DNA from: Trichocoleus desertorum NBK24
Lineage (GTDB): Bacteria; Cyanobacteriota; Cyanobacteriia; FACHB-46
DNA length: 64,000 nucleotides
Direction of reading: 5' to 3'
Assembly (NCBI RefSeq): GCF_030409055.1
Contig: NZ_CP116619.1
Span: 1,025,628 to 1,089,627, forward strand
The notes under the pieces were generated by a model, which was not told the origin of the DNA, did no database searches, and worked only from the letters and a program-made list of their open reading frames with translations. The translations under genes and the position numbers were made by a program. Below are positions 48,167 through 56,158 of the stretch, piece by piece (position 1 is the stretch's first letter; each line of letters starts with the position of its first letter).

Positions 48167-48817
48167 TTATCGACCGCCTCTCAACACCTGATCAGCCATC
48201 AGTTTTAAGTCTGGAAAAGTTGGAGAGACAATAGCCTGATCACCACGAAACTGCTGAATTTCATACTCTCCATCTACTAGCGTACAGATAGAAAGCGTGG
48301 GCTGTTTGGGTTTACCAATGTGCCGAGTACCACCTAATCCTGCGTAGTCTGCAATCCAATATTCGGGAATGCCTAAAACTGCGTAATCTTCGACCTTGCG
48401 GGCGTAATCATTTTGCCAGTTGCTACTAACCACTTCGGCAATAAATTTAATTGAAGTACCTAGCGTCAAGGTAGATTGGTCAGCCCAAAGTGGTTCTTGG
48501 ATAAGTTCATCTCGGTCAACAACTGCAACGTCAGGTCGAAATGCTGTGATACCTGTGTTGGCAGGGCGCAGTAATCCTCGCTGAAGCACAAAGCAAGGTA
48601 AGCTTGTACCATCGATTTGAACACAGAGCTTTGCCGTAATAAAGGCGGCAACCTCTTCATGCAAACCTGTTGGCTCCAAGTCGAACACCTCTCCATCGAT
48701 CAACTCATAGCGATTATCGCCACCATAGGAGGCAAGAAACTCGTCAAAGCTGAGTGGCCTCTGTTGGATTGGTGGGTCGTTCGCTTGCGTGCCCCTAGGG
48801 TTTACCGCAATGGTCAT
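48167..48817 (-). CDS. Uma2 family (DUF820) endonuclease
   Basis: A 216-residue member of the Uma2 family, with the PD-(D/E)xK nuclease fold. The opening SFDEFLASYGGDNRYELIDGEV is typical. The catalytic-type residues are Asp96 (RPDVAVV), Glu128 (FIAEVV) and Lys141 in the NDYARKVEDYAVLGIPEYWI helix. These are very common in cyanobacteria, often in many copies, and have been linked to mobile elements. Enzymatic activity is inferred from the fold. It is immediately left of the accessory island. Confidence 0.92.
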   Translation of the reverse strand: MTIAVNPRGTQANDPPIQQRPLSFDEFLASYGGDNRYELIDGEVFDLEPTGLHEEVAAFITAKLCVQIDGTSLPCFVLQRGLLRPANTGITAFRPDVAVVDRDELIQEPLWADQSTLTLGTSIKFIAEVVSSNWQNDYARKVEDYAVLGIPEYWIADYAGLGGTRHIGKPKQPTLSICTLVDGEYEIQQFRGDQAIVSPTFPDLKLMADQVLRGGR

Positions 48818-48911
48818 AGGTCAAACTTCCCCAGTTAATGCCTTCAGTCTACCAAAGTGGACATGTAATGAAGGTGTAATAGTCCAGACTTCTATGGGTA
48901 AGAAATATCTG

Positions 48912-48998
48912 ACATAACGATTGAGGCTTCAACGAACGGCGATGCACTTTGAAGCACACTAGCGAACTGCACTGTTCTGTTGCAAACCGCTGTTAGGC
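48912..48998 (-). other. attC-like recombination site (integron cassette end)
   Basis: On the minus strand the site begins GCCTAAC (matches RYYYAAC) and ends GTTATGT (close to GTTRRRY). Between them are imperfectly paired arms with matching blocks TAAC/GTTA, CAAC/GTTG, GAAC/GTTC and TGCA/TGCA, and unpaired bases, as in 59-base elements. It starts seven bases after the SLATT stop, the position expected for a cassette-associated site. No integrase gene is in the window. Confidence 0.45.
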
Positions 48999-49005
48999 AG
49001 AAAAC

Positions 49006-49619
49006 TCACTTTGCGGATTGAAGAATGACCTGCTCGAAAGATATAACTCCAGAAGTAAATATCCACCACGCTAAAGCAATCGACAAAAATAGAATCGTGA
49101 TCAAGAAACTAAGAGGAATTTTGTCTCTAAATAATTTGAAATGCTTTTGCTCATCTACCCAATCAATTTGATACTGCCAAAAGAATTTATAGTGTGTATA
49201 CCAGTCACTAAATAAAATTTGTTTGCTAATGCTTAGGTGGTAATATTTATTCTCGATTTGCGTGAGTTTTTCTATGCTCTCAGGTAAAGCGTCATCGCCT
49301 GCTTCTTTGGCATGAAAATATAGCTTCTTAAGTTCGTTAAAAAGCTGAATGAGTGATACGCCTATTCGTATTTGTCCTTTTGTGAATCGTAGAACGATAT
49401 ATACAAGCTAATGATGCCAAGAATTATGAGTGATGCAGACAAAAATCGGCTTGAAAGACCATCAAAAGCAAGAGAATAGATACCAACAGTTATGGAAAAG
49501 AGTCTTATCAACCCCGGAACTTTGATAACGATATCAAATGTCGCCAAATGTTTCTTGGCTCCAAATCCAACATTGTAGGCTGTCTCTGCGATCAACTTTA
49601 ACAAGTCATCCCTATTCAT
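49006..49619 (-). pseudogene. SLATT-domain membrane effector of the CBASS operon, frameshifted
   Basis: The gene starts at the ATG at 49619, four bases after the CD-NTase stop. Frame 1 reads NRDDLLKLIAETAYNVGFGAKKH, then two membrane helices, and stops at 49362 (TAG) after SQKDKYE. One base earlier, a second frame opens at 49362 as GVSLIQLFNELKKLY and runs to TGA at 49006, with SISKQILFSDWYTHYKFFWQ, IDWVDEQKHFKLF and a last helix. Joined, the two pieces give about 204 residues, the expected size of a SLATT_6 protein. A missing single base (e.g. GAA ATA GGC becoming GAATAGGC) would explain the break. SLATT proteins are predicted pore-forming effectors triggered by cyclic nucleotides. Sequencing error remains possible. 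Confidence 0.8.
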
Positions 49620-49623
49620 AAAA

Positions 49624-50202
49624 TCACTCAATTGGGACGTCGATTCTATCCTTGGCAACCACAACTCCATTCTTGACGGCATAACACTCAACTATGTGCT
49701 CGCCTCTAAAATCTGTACTTTCGAGTTTTTTTCTAGAGCCTGAGTCAGGCAAGATCTGTCCTCGAATCATATCCCTTTTCCTTGCCACCTCACCACAATT
49801 AAGAACTTTCCAATAAATAGAGTAACTTCCTTCTATATCATGTTCTTTTATATAGAATTTGAGATCTTTCTTCGGTGCAAGGCGGAACTGTTTACGAAGG
49901 AATTCAGATAAAGAATTCTCTCTAAAACCATTTTGAGAGACATCACAATCAATTGTCATATTGTATCGAATATCAATCGCAAACTTATCCTCTATAAATT
50001 GCTCCGTATTTCTCCAAGCTGATTGAGAAGAAGCCGCAATATCATTATTGGTAGCTGGTCTATTCGGAAAGGGCCTGCCGTAAACCTTTTTCCACTTGTC
50101 ATAAGCGATATCTTGCTCACCAGCTTCTATTGCTTCTACACATAGTTTGTGAGCTTTTTTCGCTTTTCGCTGAAACTTTTTCTTGACTCTAACCCTTTGG
50201 TT
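49624..50202 (-). pseudogene. CD-NTase 3' part: AGS-C sensor domain, separated by the IS
   Basis: This is the C-terminal part of the CD-NTase. From the insertion point it reads NQRVRVKKKF-QRKAKKAHKLC, then the AGS-C domain: AWRNTEQFIEDKFAIDIRYN, FYIKEHDIEGSYSIYWKV, NCGEVARKRDMIRGQI, GEHIVECYAVKNG and the closing RIDVPIE. The frame extends to a TTG inside the IS end (50217) but has no authentic start. AGS-C is a predicted sensor fused to SMODS/CD-NTase enzymes. It ends at TGA (49624), four bases before the SLATT start. The 189 codons retained join in frame with the 240 of the N-terminal part once the IS is removed. Confidence 0.85.
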
Positions 50203-50219
50203 CTGCTTGACTGACAAAA
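50203..50219 (+). repeat. Left inverted repeat of the IS4-type element
   Basis: The 17 bases are the exact reverse complement of 51475-51491. Just outside lies one copy of the 10-bp target duplication (50193-50202). Confidence 0.93.
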
Positions 50220-51392
50220 CTAAAAAGCTGGAAAGCGTTTCAGAACAATAAACTCACGATTCAAGGACTGATCCTGTTGTCGTTGAGAAGCGATCGCAGG
50301 GTGCGGGTCCGGTGCACTCGATAGAAACTGAAACAGAGAGAGTTTCCGCTGTTGAGTAATCGCTAAACGAATCCAGTTCCAGCCCAACTTGAGATAACTC
50401 ATGCCCCGATTCCAGTGAGTATCGACCAAACGGCGCTGGCATGATGTCACCACCTGAACCCCTTGCAACACTAGAAACAGCATGGTCAGCGCCATCACCC
50501 CACACAGTTGAGTTAGCGCAAACTTGTCCCGTAAGCGTGATGCTTCCAAGTTGAAGCCATTCGACTTGAGATCCAAAAAGGATTCTTCCACTTGGAACCG
50601 CAATCGGTATTGGGCAAAGGTTTGTAAAGTGGTGGGTTCATCGCTGACGACCACCCAATCTTCATCCGCATCTCGGTCATGAGCAAAGGCCAGGTAAACA
50701 TTGCCATAGGGTTTCTTTTTACCCAGGAACACGGCTGGGGTGAAGTAGGCTTGGCCTGGTTGCAGTCGCACCGATGAAACCCGGTGCCAACGACCGGCGA
50801 GTTGAAACTGGAACGAGCTTTTGATGCGGATACGGAAATGCCAACCCAAGGTCTGGGTGAGATACTTCATCAACTTGCCATCTGCAAAACCTCGGTCTGC
50901 GAGCAAGACGACTGCGACTCCTTCTGGCAGCAACCGTGCCGATTGGCGCAGCACCCGTTGAATCGTCCACAATCGCACACTGCTGCTGGATTGGGCAACG
51001 ACTCTCCAAGCGATGGGAAGGGTTCGTCCTCGATACACAACCCCGACCCACACCAGGCAGAAGCAATTCCACAGCACTGTGGTGTCCAAGCTCAAATAGA
51101 TCCGCTCGTGACTCCATTGAGATAAGGCTTGAGCCATCAGCACCTGATGCATGCTTGCCACGTCAATGCGACGATTCGACAACCACCGCCGAAATCGTCG
51201 TTGATGGGACTGAGCATAGGTGGCGCGGCTCAGAACATAAACTCCAAAACCATTGAGATGAATCTGCTGACTTTGGATGATGCCAACCATCATCCAGCAC
51301 AACGTTTGCAGATGTCGAACAGCGCGCCAGAGGTCTTGGCATTGACTCAGATAATCGTGCAACGCATCATAGAGACGGGAAGTAGGAGCCAT
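50220..51392 (-). CDS. IS4-family DDE transposase
   Basis: A 390-residue transposase that appears intact. The catalytic triad is Asp103 (LSLDTTVLWN), Asp166 (LLADRGFADG) and Glu269. The YREK signature of the IS4 family is present as Tyr262, Arg265, Glu269 and Lys276 (YRLRFQVEESFLDLK). The N-terminal helical region binds the ends. It starts about 99 bases inside one end of the element and ends beside the other inverted repeat. The codon frame is clean, which agrees with a recent insertion. Confidence 0.93.
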   Translation of the reverse strand: MAPTSRLYDALHDYLSQCQDLWRAVRHLQTLCWMMVGIIQSQQIHLNGFGVYVLSRATYAQSHQRRFRRWLSNRRIDVASMHQVLMAQALSQWSHERIYLSLDTTVLWNCFCLVWVGVVYRGRTLPIAWRVVAQSSSSVRLWTIQRVLRQSARLLPEGVAVVLLADRGFADGKLMKYLTQTLGWHFRIRIKSSFQFQLAGRWHRVSSVRLQPGQAYFTPAVFLGKKKPYGNVYLAFAHDRDADEDWVVVSDEPTTLQTFAQYRLRFQVEESFLDLKSNGFNLEASRLRDKFALTQLCGVMALTMLFLVLQGVQVVTSCQRRLVDTHWNRGMSYLKLGWNWIRLAITQQRKLSLFQFLSSAPDPHPAIASQRQQDQSLNREFIVLKRFPAF

Positions 51393-51474
51393 TGGTTTTG
51401 CTAATGGGTGTGGTAACTGATCAGCTTAAACCAAGCTCCTCTTCCCTCCTAGCCTTCTTTTCAATCACTCAGAC

Positions 51475-51491
51475 TTTTGTCAGTCAAGCAG
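51475..51491 (-). repeat. Right inverted repeat of the IS4-type element
   Basis: Exact complement of 50203-50219. The second copy of the target duplication, CCCTTTGGTT, is at 51492-51501. Confidence 0.93.
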
Positions 51492-52212
51492 CCCTTTGGT
51501 TACTTCCAAGAGCAGCATAATAGTTTTGATCTGGCTGAGCTATGAGGTATGCAAAGAAGTCTCGACTCATCAAGTCATAGCAGCCATAGCTCTTATCATC
51601 ATAATCAGTTATCGATTTTAGAAAATTGTAAGCCAGTGTGTCGATCAGCAGCCCTCCCATACCTACGCCATGCTTGTTCTTCCATGCCCTAGCCATTTTG
51701 CAGAGCCGTCGAAGATTGCTATTTTTCTGAATGTTAAATTCTGATATTGCCTCAATCTCTTCTCGTGGCTTAGTTATTTTCCAGCTACCGTCACCATAAG
51801 TATCGGGATACTCAAAGCTGCCATCATCCTGTTCAAAAACTGGCTGTACTTCAATATGGAAGTTCGTGTATTGAACGCACACCACAAGGCGATCCACGAA
51901 CACTTTGGTATTAGGGTATCTAGCCTTAATCGCATCTTTTGTATCAGATAGAAGCTGATACTGCTTTCCGTCCTTATAGTCAAACCACATCACTTTGGGC
52001 ATGATGTAGAGCATGTCTAAATCTGAGATGCCTTTGATGGCTGTTTTACGTCCAATCGAGCCGACCTGAAATGAATTTGCTGCTTTGGACTCCGTATCTC
52101 TGAAATTTTTGTTTAAAGAAGCTGTAACTTCTCCATACCGATTGCTTATTTCTTCAGCGTTACCTATTGCTAAGTTATTCAGGAAATCGCTGAACATTGT
52201 CGATATAGTCAA
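51492..52212 (-). pseudogene. CD-NTase 5' part: nucleotidyltransferase domain cut by the IS
   Basis: The TTG at 52212 has AGAGGA seven bases upstream; an ATG lies five codons later. The 240 retained residues form the CD-NTase catalytic domain: FSDFLNNLAIGNAEEISNRYGEV, then the GS motif (51-52) and Asp64/Asp66 in GSIGRKTAIKGISDLDML, with the third carboxylate Glu121 (FHIEVQPVF). The helical part (NLRRLCKMARAWKNKHG, LLIDTLAYNFL) follows. The frame enters the IS after GSNQR and stops at TGA in the inverted repeat. All three catalytic acids are retained; the enzyme lost its AGS-C end. In CBASS such enzymes make cyclic oligonucleotides on phage infection. Confidence 0.88.
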
Positions 52213-52549
52213 TCTAGCATCCTCTGCATTTAAGTCTATTGACGTGTTATCACAGTCTATTTGTAGTTTATGCGTACTAATCCAGGTTTAAGATTATATA
52301 GCTAATGCATATTTTTCGGCTACTTGCATTTGTGGGCGTGAGTGATGAAGTGCTACATCAAGCTGAGCGAAGTGGCGCACCACTAGTTTCTGGTTGCCGT
52401 TACTTACCTGAGCTTCCGCCACAGGCTTGGAACGGTAATACCCCCATATGAAGACGTAAACACCGATCCTGAGAAATATGCTGAGTTTCTTACAATAACT
52501 GTAACTAACTGAGCGTATATGTTTACTGTTTAGAGGGGGAGCGTGAAGT
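52213..52549. other. Intergenic, 337 bp, between divergent CD-NTase and clpB
   Basis: Promoters for both genes must lie here. A TATAAT match on the minus strand at 52293-52298 lies about 80 bases before the CD-NTase start and may be its -10 box. A 48-codon plus-strand frame (52305-52451) and a 91-codon minus-strand frame (52294-52569) have no supporting features. Confidence 0.45.
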
Positions 52550-55177
52550 ATGCAACCAACCAATCCCAATCAATTTACCGAAAAAGCGTGGGAAGCGATC
52601 GCTCAGACCCCTGAGGTGGTCAAGCAAGCCCAGCAGCAGCAGATTGAGACGGAGCACTTGTTCAAGTCCTTGGTAGAGCAAGAAGGACTTGCCAGCAGCG
52701 TCTTCAGTAAGCTGGGCATTAGTGTGCAGAAGTTGCGCGATCGCACCGAAGAATTTATTAAGCGCCAACCCAAAGTTTCCAATAGTGGCTCGGTGTACTG
52801 GGGCCGTAGTGCCGATACCTTGCTCGATCGCGCTGAAGGCTATCGCAAAGAATTTGAAGACGACTTCATTTCGATCGAACACTTGCTATTGGCCTACACC
52901 CAAGACGATCGCTTTGGTAAAGCGCTATTTCAGGAATTTAAACTAGACACAGCCAAGCTACGTAGCACGATTGAGCAAATTCGAGGAAGTCAGAAAGTGA
53001 CCGACCAAAACCCAGAAGGGAAATACGACTCGTTAACTAAATATGGCCGTGACCTGACAGAATTTGCTCGTCAAGGCAAGCTTGACCCTGTGATCGGTCG
53101 GGACGACGAAATTCGCCGGACGATTCAGATTTTGTCTCGCCGCACCAAGAACAACCCCGTCCTGATTGGGGAACCCGGTGTCGGTAAAACCGCGATCGCT
53201 GAAGGTCTTGCCCAGCGGATTGTGAAAGGGGATGTGCCCGAATCATTGCGCGATCGCAAGCTGATTGCTCTGGATATGGGTGCTCTGATTGCGGGTGCCA
53301 AGTACCGGGGTGAATTTGAAGAACGCCTCAAAGCCGTTTTGAAGGAAGTCACTGACTCCAACGGCACCATCATCCTGTTTATTGACGAAATCCACACCGT
53401 TGTAGGCGCAGGGGCAACCCAAGGCGCGATGGATGCAGGGAACTTGCTGAAGCCGATGTTGGCTCGTGGGGAGCTGCGTTGTATTGGTGCCACCACCCTG
53501 GATGAGTACCGCAAGTACATCGAAAAAGATGCGGCGCTAGAGCGGCGTTTCCAACAGGTTTACATTGACCAGCCCACCGTCGAAGATACCATCTCGATTT
53601 TGCGCGGCTTGAAAGACCGCTACGAAACCCACCACAACGTCAAAATCTCGGATAGCTCTCTTGTGGCTGCGGCAACACTCTCGACTCGCTACATCAGCGA
53701 TCGCTTCTTACCCGACAAGGCGATCGACCTGGTAGACGAAGCTGCCGCCAAGCTGAAGATGGAAAGCACCTCCAAGCCTGAAGAACTCGACGAAATCGAT
53801 CGCAAGATTCTGCAATTGGAGATGGAACGGTTATCTCTGCAAAAAGAGAGTGATGTCGCTTCTCGCGATCGCCTAGACCGACTAGAGAGAGAACTGGGTG
53901 ATCTTAAGGAAAACCAAAGCCGCCTCAATGCTCAATGGCAAGGAGAAAAGGAGATCCTCGATCGCCGTAAAGCGCTAAAAGAGGAGATCGAACAGGTGAA
54001 TGTGGAGGTTCAGCAAGCCGAGCGTGAGTACGACCTCAACCGAGCTGCGGAGCTGAAGTACGGCAAACTAACTGAGTTGCAACGACAACTGGATGAGATC
54101 GAGGCGAAACTGGCGGATACTCAAACCAGCGGGCGATCGCTGTTGCGCGAAGAAGTGACTGAAGCGGATATCGCGGAGATCATTTCTAAATGGACGGGTA
54201 TCCCTCTGAATAAGCTGGTTGAGTCCGAGATGCAGAAGCTTCTCCAGTTAGAAGAAGAACTGCACAAGCGAGTTGTAGGTCAGCAGGAAGCGGTAACTGC
54301 CGTAGCCGATGCGATTCAGCGTTCTCGCGCAGGCTTGGCAGACCCCAACCGCCCCACCGCTAGCTTTATCTTCCTCGGCCCCACAGGTGTCGGTAAGACT
54401 GAACTCGGCAAAGCACTAGCTTCTTACCTGTTTGACACCGAAGACGCAATGGTGCGGATCGATATGTCGGAGTATATGGAGAAGCACTCTGTATCTCGCC
54501 TGATCGGTGCGCCTCCGGGATATGTGGGCTACGAAGAAGGTGGTCAACTAACAGAAGCCATTCGCCGTCGGCCTTACTCGGTGATTTTGTTTGATGAGAT
54601 CGAGAAAGCGCATCCGGATGTGTTCAACGTGATGTTGCAAATCCTAGATGATGGCCGTGTCACCGACTCTCAAGGCCGCAAGGTAGACTTCAAGAACACC
54701 ATCATTATTATGACCAGCAACATTGGCTCCCAGTTCATCCTAGATGTGGCAGGAGATAACTCTCAATACGAAGAGATGCGGAGCCGTGTGCTGGATGCGA
54801 TGCGAAGCAACTTCCGTCCAGAGTTCCTCAACCGGATTGATGAGATCATCATCTTCCATCCCCTAGACCGCAGCGAACTCCGAGAGATCGTCAAGCTCCA
54901 AGTTCAGCGCTTAGAGCAACGGTTGAGCGATCGCAAGATGGCTCTCAAGCTATCCGATGCGGCTCTCGACTTCTTGGCAGAAGTGGGTTACGACCCAGTC
55001 TACGGTGCTCGTCCACTCAAGCGGGCGATCCAACGCGAACTGGAAACCCAAATTGCCAAGGCAATTCTCCGCAGCGAGTTCACAACTGGCGACACGATCT
55101 TTGTCGATGTCGAAAACGAGCGCCTAGCCTTCAAGCGCTTACCCGCCGAGTTACTAGCTGCTCAGTCTTCTAGCTAA
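52550..55177 (+). CDS. clpB: ClpB disaggregase (Hsp100)
   Basis: An 875-residue ClpB. The substrate N-domain (1-145) is followed by NBD1 (P-loop [10 protein letters not shown], Walker B ILFIDEIH), the coiled-coil middle domain (about 400-525; [19 protein letters not shown]) and NBD2 ([35 protein letters not shown]). Substrate pore loops KYRGEFEER and [13 protein letters not shown] are present. It works with DnaK/DnaJ to rescue aggregated proteins after heat stress. The length is the typical one. A strong terminator follows at 55228. It is a chromosomal gene between two accessory pieces. Confidence 0.97.
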
Positions 55178-55270: not shown

Positions 55271-55369
55271 ATCAGGAATTGAGTAAGCGATCGCTATTTA
55301 TATCTTGCGACCCTCTTGTATGCTATTTTTAATTATCTCCAGTTCAATTACTAATGATAGGAATTGATA

Positions 55370-56158
55370 GTGAAAGAATTTCTTGATGCCTTTAAAAAAC
55401 AACTAGAAGAGAACTGGCTTGTTGATTTCAAGAAATCATCCAAGGTTGAGGATTTAATATGTGAAGATCCAAACTTTCAGGACTTCCATCAGCAAATGGG
55501 AGAAATCAATACCCCTGAGGATTACTGGAACTTTTATCTCAGGATAAAAAGAGATAAAACTCTCGCGGGATCGAACAGTTTAACAGTATTTCAACGAGCG
55601 AAAGCAACTCAATTTTTTATTTTCTACTGTGGAGATCCTGTCATACATTGGTTCTTCGTACAAGCCATTGATGCCCTGGAACATAACTTGTATATTCCTG
55701 CATGTTCAGCCATTTTAAATGGGATTGAAGCTTCTCTCAGGATAACAATACATCAAGTTGAAAAGTCTAATGATATCTCTAAGCTTTCGCCTTATCAAGT
55801 TCTGAGCAATCCACTAATATTAAAGGCAAAAGATCTTGGACTTCCTGTCCATGCACTTGCCCTGCCAAACGAGACTGACTTTAAGAGCAAGCTTGCTACA
55901 AATAAACCCAACCGTATTGATGTAGAAATTGTTAGAATAAGAAATAATATATGTCATGGAAATCTTGTAGAGTATATAGATACAAGCTCTGGCAAAGAAT
56001 ATACAGTTTTAACACCCGAATGTCTTCAGGATTTAGCTTTTGATCTTGTCGATGTATCTAGATTGTGGGCATATTCCTTAGGAATGTTCCGCATAGAAAA
56101 AATATTACACAATCAGCTTCGATTTCTAGTTAAACAAAATATTCAAAAGGCTCAATGA
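55370..56158 (+). CDS. HEPN-like domain protein, possible toxin RNase
   Basis: I start at the GTG at 55370, which has AGGA seven bases upstream; the TTG at 55364 is too close to it (262 residues). The protein is helical and AT-rich in codon use (many ATA/AGA/TTA), unlike clpB beside it. Near the end of the second helical bundle is RIRNNICHGN, which fits the RNxxxH (RX4-6H) catalytic motif of HEPN RNases (Arg191, His196). The preceding LYIPACSAILNGIEASLR fits the packing helix of HEPN folds. No MNT antitoxin is adjacent. The AT-rich composition and flanking ISKra4 remnant suggest horizontal transfer. The HEPN call is by motif only. Confidence 0.55.
   Translation: MKEFLDAFKKQLEENWLVDFKKSSKVEDLICEDPNFQDFHQQMGEINTPEDYWNFYLRIKRDKTLAGSNSLTVFQRAKATQFFIFYCGDPVIHWFFVQAIDALEHNLYIPACSAILNGIEASLRITIHQVEKSNDISKLSPYQVLSNPLILKAKDLGLPVHALALPNETDFKSKLATNKPNRIDVEIVRIRNNICHGNLVEYIDTSSGKEYTVLTPECLQDLAFDLVDVSRLWAYSLGMFRIEKILHNQLRFLVKQNIQKAQ

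Follow-up and report, generated by a model that had tools for sequence, protein, structure and literature searches.

The window, a stretch of 64,000 nucleotides from the genome of Trichocoleus desertorum NBK24, contains an insertion sequence within a CD-NTase gene, and it raises the question whether this element switches a CBASS defence operon off reversibly or is one step in the decay of the operon. Taken together, the evidence makes it highly likely that an acquired type I-like CBASS has had its cyclase broken by a resident IS4-family element and its effector by a separate deletion. The features are listed in Table 1.

Table 1. Features of the interrupted CBASS locus (positions in the window).
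Feature	Positions	Strand	Evidence and remarks
Cargo slot between Uma2-like gene and clpB	48878..52417		contains the CBASS operon; different genes in two congeners
SLATT_6 effector, 3' part, another frame	49006..49363	-	matches second half of single-ORF SLATT_6 relatives
SLATT_6 2TM effector, 5' part	49362..49619	-	PF18169 profile positions 1-85 of 176; premature stop at 49362
CD-NTase 3' part, codons 241-429 and stop, AGS_C sensor domain	49624..50192	-	PF18134 E=7.2e-48; alignment with 76 relatives
Left target duplication CCCTTTGGTT	50193..50202		abuts element end
IS4-family insertion sequence, 1,289 bp	50203..51491	-	perfect 17-bp inverted repeats, 10-bp target duplication, 3 genomic copies
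Transposase, 390 aa, DDE_Tnp_1	50220..51392	-	PF01609 E=1.1e-11; intact single ORF
Right target duplication CCCTTTGGTT	51492..51501		abuts element end
CD-NTase 5' part, codons 1-240	51492..52212	-	SMODS PF18144 E=1.2e-45; PADLOC cyclase PDLC00796

The element boundaries, inverted repeats and target duplication described in the first-pass annotation are correct to the base. The terminal repeats CTGCTTGACTGACAAAA at 50203-50219 and 51475-51491 are complementary in 17 of 17 positions, and the computed chance of a perfect 10-mer abutting both ends of the element is about 1e-6. The transposase has the YREK motif with the spacing Y-(2)-R-(3)-E-(6)-K (Y262, R265, E269, K276; YRLRFQVEESFLDLK from residue 262). 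Candidates for the first two aspartates of its DDE triad are found in LDTTV (from residue 102) and LADRGF (from residue 164). Its best NCBIfam match is the IS4 model NF033591 (E=3.6e-40), with 138.1 bits against a curated cut-off of 152. IS4-family elements are characterized by YREK, the absence of a transposase frameshift and target duplications that measure close to 10 bp (De Palmenaer et al. 2008, PMC2266710). The element shares with them a single-ORF DDE transposase with YREK, a size of 1.3 kb, perfect terminal repeats and target duplications of about 10 bp; the transposase is one ORF of 390 amino acids, with no frameshift, in all three copies in the genome. The earlier assignment to an IS4 type is thus borne out by the motif, the best-matching model and the duplications. 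The subgroup is less clear. The element has CT ends, like IS10, IS50 and ISPepr1, yet the duplications are 10 bp long, whereas Table 1 of the same study gives 9 for IS10, 8-9 for IS50 and 7-8 for ISPepr1, and no subgroup of that table fits both features (PMC2266710). Membership in the IS10 subgroup was rejected: the CT ends are present, but the duplications are 10 bp, not 9, in three of three copies. Judged by its sequence, the element fits the IS4 family without falling cleanly into one subgroup.

A sequence search of the genome (a single contig of 5,458,034 bp) found three copies of the element. The two others differ from the window copy by one and three bases, being at least 99.7% identical to it, and are flanked by their own perfect 10-bp duplications, GTTGTTCTAG and GAGCTTCCTC. 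They occupy positions 1501-2789 in each of the loci L002 and L003, where the open frames that they interrupt are MscS-like and TPR-like, respectively (named by reading the sequence). Related copies, 85% and 72% identical, are carried by congeners, and the 72%-identical copy, in congener G002, has the 10-bp duplication GGAATTCAAG. A plasmid search gave no match to the element, and viral contigs contained no empty-site pattern. Three near-identical copies (0-3 differences) in different genes and with different 10-bp duplications indicate that the element is mobile, that it moved recently and that it is not site-specific. The recent insertion claimed in the first-pass annotation therefore holds, given the identity of the copies and their perfect ends and duplications. 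The "precise site" of that annotation, on the other hand, suggests site specificity, and this is ruled out by three copies at three unrelated targets.

When the flanks of the window copy were joined by a script over one copy of the duplication, they formed a frame of 429 codons and a stop, with a TTG start at 52212 and no internal stops. The unchanged frame claimed in the first-pass annotation is thus confirmed, and the joined protein is one SMODS and AGS_C CD-NTase. In the genome as it stands, the cyclase frame is not intact: the element lies between codons 240 and 241, and the 5' ORF continues into it as far as 51484. The two CD-NTase parts match consecutive stretches of PDLC00796 (positions 1-242 and 237-430; PADLOC). 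No second SMODS cyclase was found by a search of the genome.

Relatives were collected by a scan of GTDB genomes, which gave 80 loci, 76 of them full-length and used for alignment; the scan retains the best-covered loci, and broken ones are probably under-sampled. The first-pass annotation had proposed aligning the joined protein to AGS_C CD-NTases as a check, and the protein is indeed collinear with the 76 intact relatives, with no gap at the junction and 57-80% identity. It keeps 130 of 132 near-invariant columns (those at least 95% conserved), departing from them at F48 and C373. The closest relatives in the scan are those of the filamentous cyanobacterium CCP5 (80%), Nodosilinea sp. LEGE 07088 (76%) and Leptolyngbya sp. 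BC1307 (69%). The nucleotidyltransferase core, GS...DxD and a third acidic residue, is present as VGSIGR...SDLDML and HIEVQP and is conserved with the relatives. The target site itself encodes GSxQxV, where G236, S237, Q239 and V241 are invariant in the 76 relatives.

The effector gene starts four bases downstream of the CD-NTase stop. An effector gene next to the cyclase, as is expected of CBASS, is therefore present, but it is frame-broken: nucleotide alignment with three cyanobacterial relatives places a short frame-breaking deletion near 49362. SLATT_6 adjoins the cyclase in 50 of the 80 relatives, and in 48 of these 50 a single ORF covers both halves; the gene is split also in the remaining two, L052 and L069. 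The other 30 relatives mostly have a downstream ORF of similar length, and two of these that were tested are SLATT_4. Programmed frameshifting was considered and rejected, as inspection revealed no slippery site and the relatives have a continuous frame. Since the deletion is separate from the element and the gene is uninterrupted in relatives, the operon has two independent breaks. Cyclases alone are broken in some relatives, by in-frame stops in L075 and L102 (Aphanothece and Acinetobacter pittii) and by a frame break in G202 (L011/L023); both cyclase and effector are broken together in none of the relatives scanned (80 GTDB loci). The first-pass annotation mentions neither the frame break in the effector gene of the window nor the open host genes of the other two element copies.

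One possibility is that the effector break is an assembly or sequencing error, the element alone inactivating the operon. The break is a small indel, but it does not lie in a long homopolymer, the neighbouring genes are open, and the genome is a complete single contig with completeness 99.99, which together make an error unlikely.

The operon corresponds to type I-like CBASS (PADLOC cyclase PDLC00796, effector PDLC00695) in having the same two genes in the same order, the same domains and the conserved catalytic residues. It differs from the intact systems compared (those of Nodosilinea, Leptolyngbya, Proteobacteria and others) in that here the cyclase is interrupted by the element and the effector by a frameshift.

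The slot that holds the operon is flanked by the Uma2-like gene at 48167-48817 and by clpB at 52550-55177. Comparison within the genus, family and order comprised two congeners, G001 and G002, and the CBASS operon, including the cyclase, is absent from both; the strains with an uninterrupted gene that the first-pass annotation predicts were thus not found among them. The slot of G001 contains an HNH-TPR gene and that of G002 a DUF4265 gene; in G002 the Uma2-like gene is absent too. The congener slots lie at 7745-10034 of L112 and 2966-3868 of L113. The operon and slot without the element have a G+C content of 39.4%, lower than that of the window (49.2%) and that of the element (51.2%). Relatives of the cyclase are spread over several phyla in the GTDB scan and occur also on plasmids. 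No repeats of at least 10 bases that could mark a mobile element of the operon's own were found at the slot edges. The variable slot, the congeners lacking the cyclase, the low G+C content and the occurrence of relatives across phyla and on plasmids support horizontal acquisition of the operon; probably it was so acquired, and the resident element probably inserted afterwards. On the other side of clpB and next to it, a 264-aa protein at 55364-56158 weakly matches a HEPN family (MAE_28990-like); an ORF at 56226-56936 matches UPF0236 weakly (E=0.01) and is possibly a fragment of another transposase.

It is very improbable that the element is a reversible off-switch of the cyclase, or that selection favoured both lesions because of the cost, in this host, of a CBASS whose 2TM effector is active. 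Still less credible is the specific form of the former in which the element excises precisely and so turns the CD-NTase, and hence CBASS, back on in a part of the population. The clean duplication, the intact transposase and the closure of the frame would permit excision in principle. The first-pass annotation had stressed that excision restores the CD-NTase frame; the frame does close, but this follows automatically wherever a gene has received a clean insertion flanked by a duplication. Indeed, the host frames of the other two copies close on joining in the same way, and since all three copies are equally clean and sit in unrelated genes, there is nothing special about the CD-NTase site. Precise excision is rare in the IS4 family (Tn10/IS10). 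Moreover, because the SLATT_6 effector is also frame-broken, loss of the element would bring back the cyclase only and would not restore the two-gene CBASS.

The position of the break within the enzyme was considered on the structure that AlphaFold2 predicts for the intact Nodosilinea relative (mean pLDDT 84). Residues 240/241 fall in a short hairpin, which is followed by two further helices of the catalytic unit, 248-264 and 268-278, and then by AGS_C. For the catalytic unit, the best PDB match, over about 300 residues, and nearest solved relative is CdnD of Pseudomonas aeruginosa ATCC 27853 (PDB 6p82, 6p8u; sequence E about 6e-4; TM-score 0.75-0.78 on the target). The identity is about 19%, and the solved chain, of about 300 residues, lacks an AGS_C part. 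CdnD is bound to HORMA2 in 6p8u, whereas no HORMA2 partner was seen at this locus. Since the site precedes two more helices and the CdnD match spans about 300 residues, the element cuts the catalytic unit and not an interdomain linker. That the fragments are still expressed and work together or singly, with the element driving the AGS_C part, is hardly plausible: both fragments keep their conserved residues and the ORF of the AGS_C part has a TTG start within the inverted repeat of the element, but the break lies within the catalytic unit ahead of two of its helices, SMODS relatives without AGS_C here have about 290-320 residues and none is near 240, promoter-like matches are not above chance expectation, and the effector is broken.

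The insertion is thus of an ordinary kind, and it hit a decaying type I-like CBASS that was probably acquired horizontally. The history of the locus may be reconstructed as follows. Firstly, a two-gene operon, encoding a SMODS/AGS_C CD-NTase and then a SLATT_6 2TM effector, would have entered the variable slot beside clpB. Secondly, the resident IS4-family element would have transposed between codons 240 and 241, making the 10-bp target duplication and severing the enzyme within its catalytic unit. The effector would separately have undergone its short frame-breaking deletion, and selection may have been relaxed after the first of the two lesions. Polarised counts of synonymous and nonsynonymous substitutions gave no clear nonsynonymous excess in the CD-NTase or the SLATT halves, and hence no independent sign of relaxed selection. 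One comparison, for the 5' half of SLATT, differs, but with the relative changing faster. The lack of clear relaxation in these counts suggests that the damage is recent. Both proteins would have lost their function, and the CBASS system is very probably non-functional here.

A partly analogous case is the insertion of IS1096 into lsr2, which raises resistance under phage selection (PMC11139207). In both cases a gene with a bearing on phage defence is inactivated by an insertion sequence; here, unlike in the case of lsr2, a defence gene is broken and no selection is shown. Literature searches gave no paper on exactly an insertion sequence inside a CBASS cyclase. The element, the defence system and the inactivation of accessory genes by insertion sequences are all of known kinds, and little is added beyond an example of decay. 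As such, the locus is a clear example of an acquired defence system decaying, in which the sensor enzyme was disrupted by a resident insertion sequence and the effector by a separate lesion. A search by domains alone finds both a CBASS cyclase and a SLATT effector at this site, and loci of this type therefore inflate counts of defence systems.
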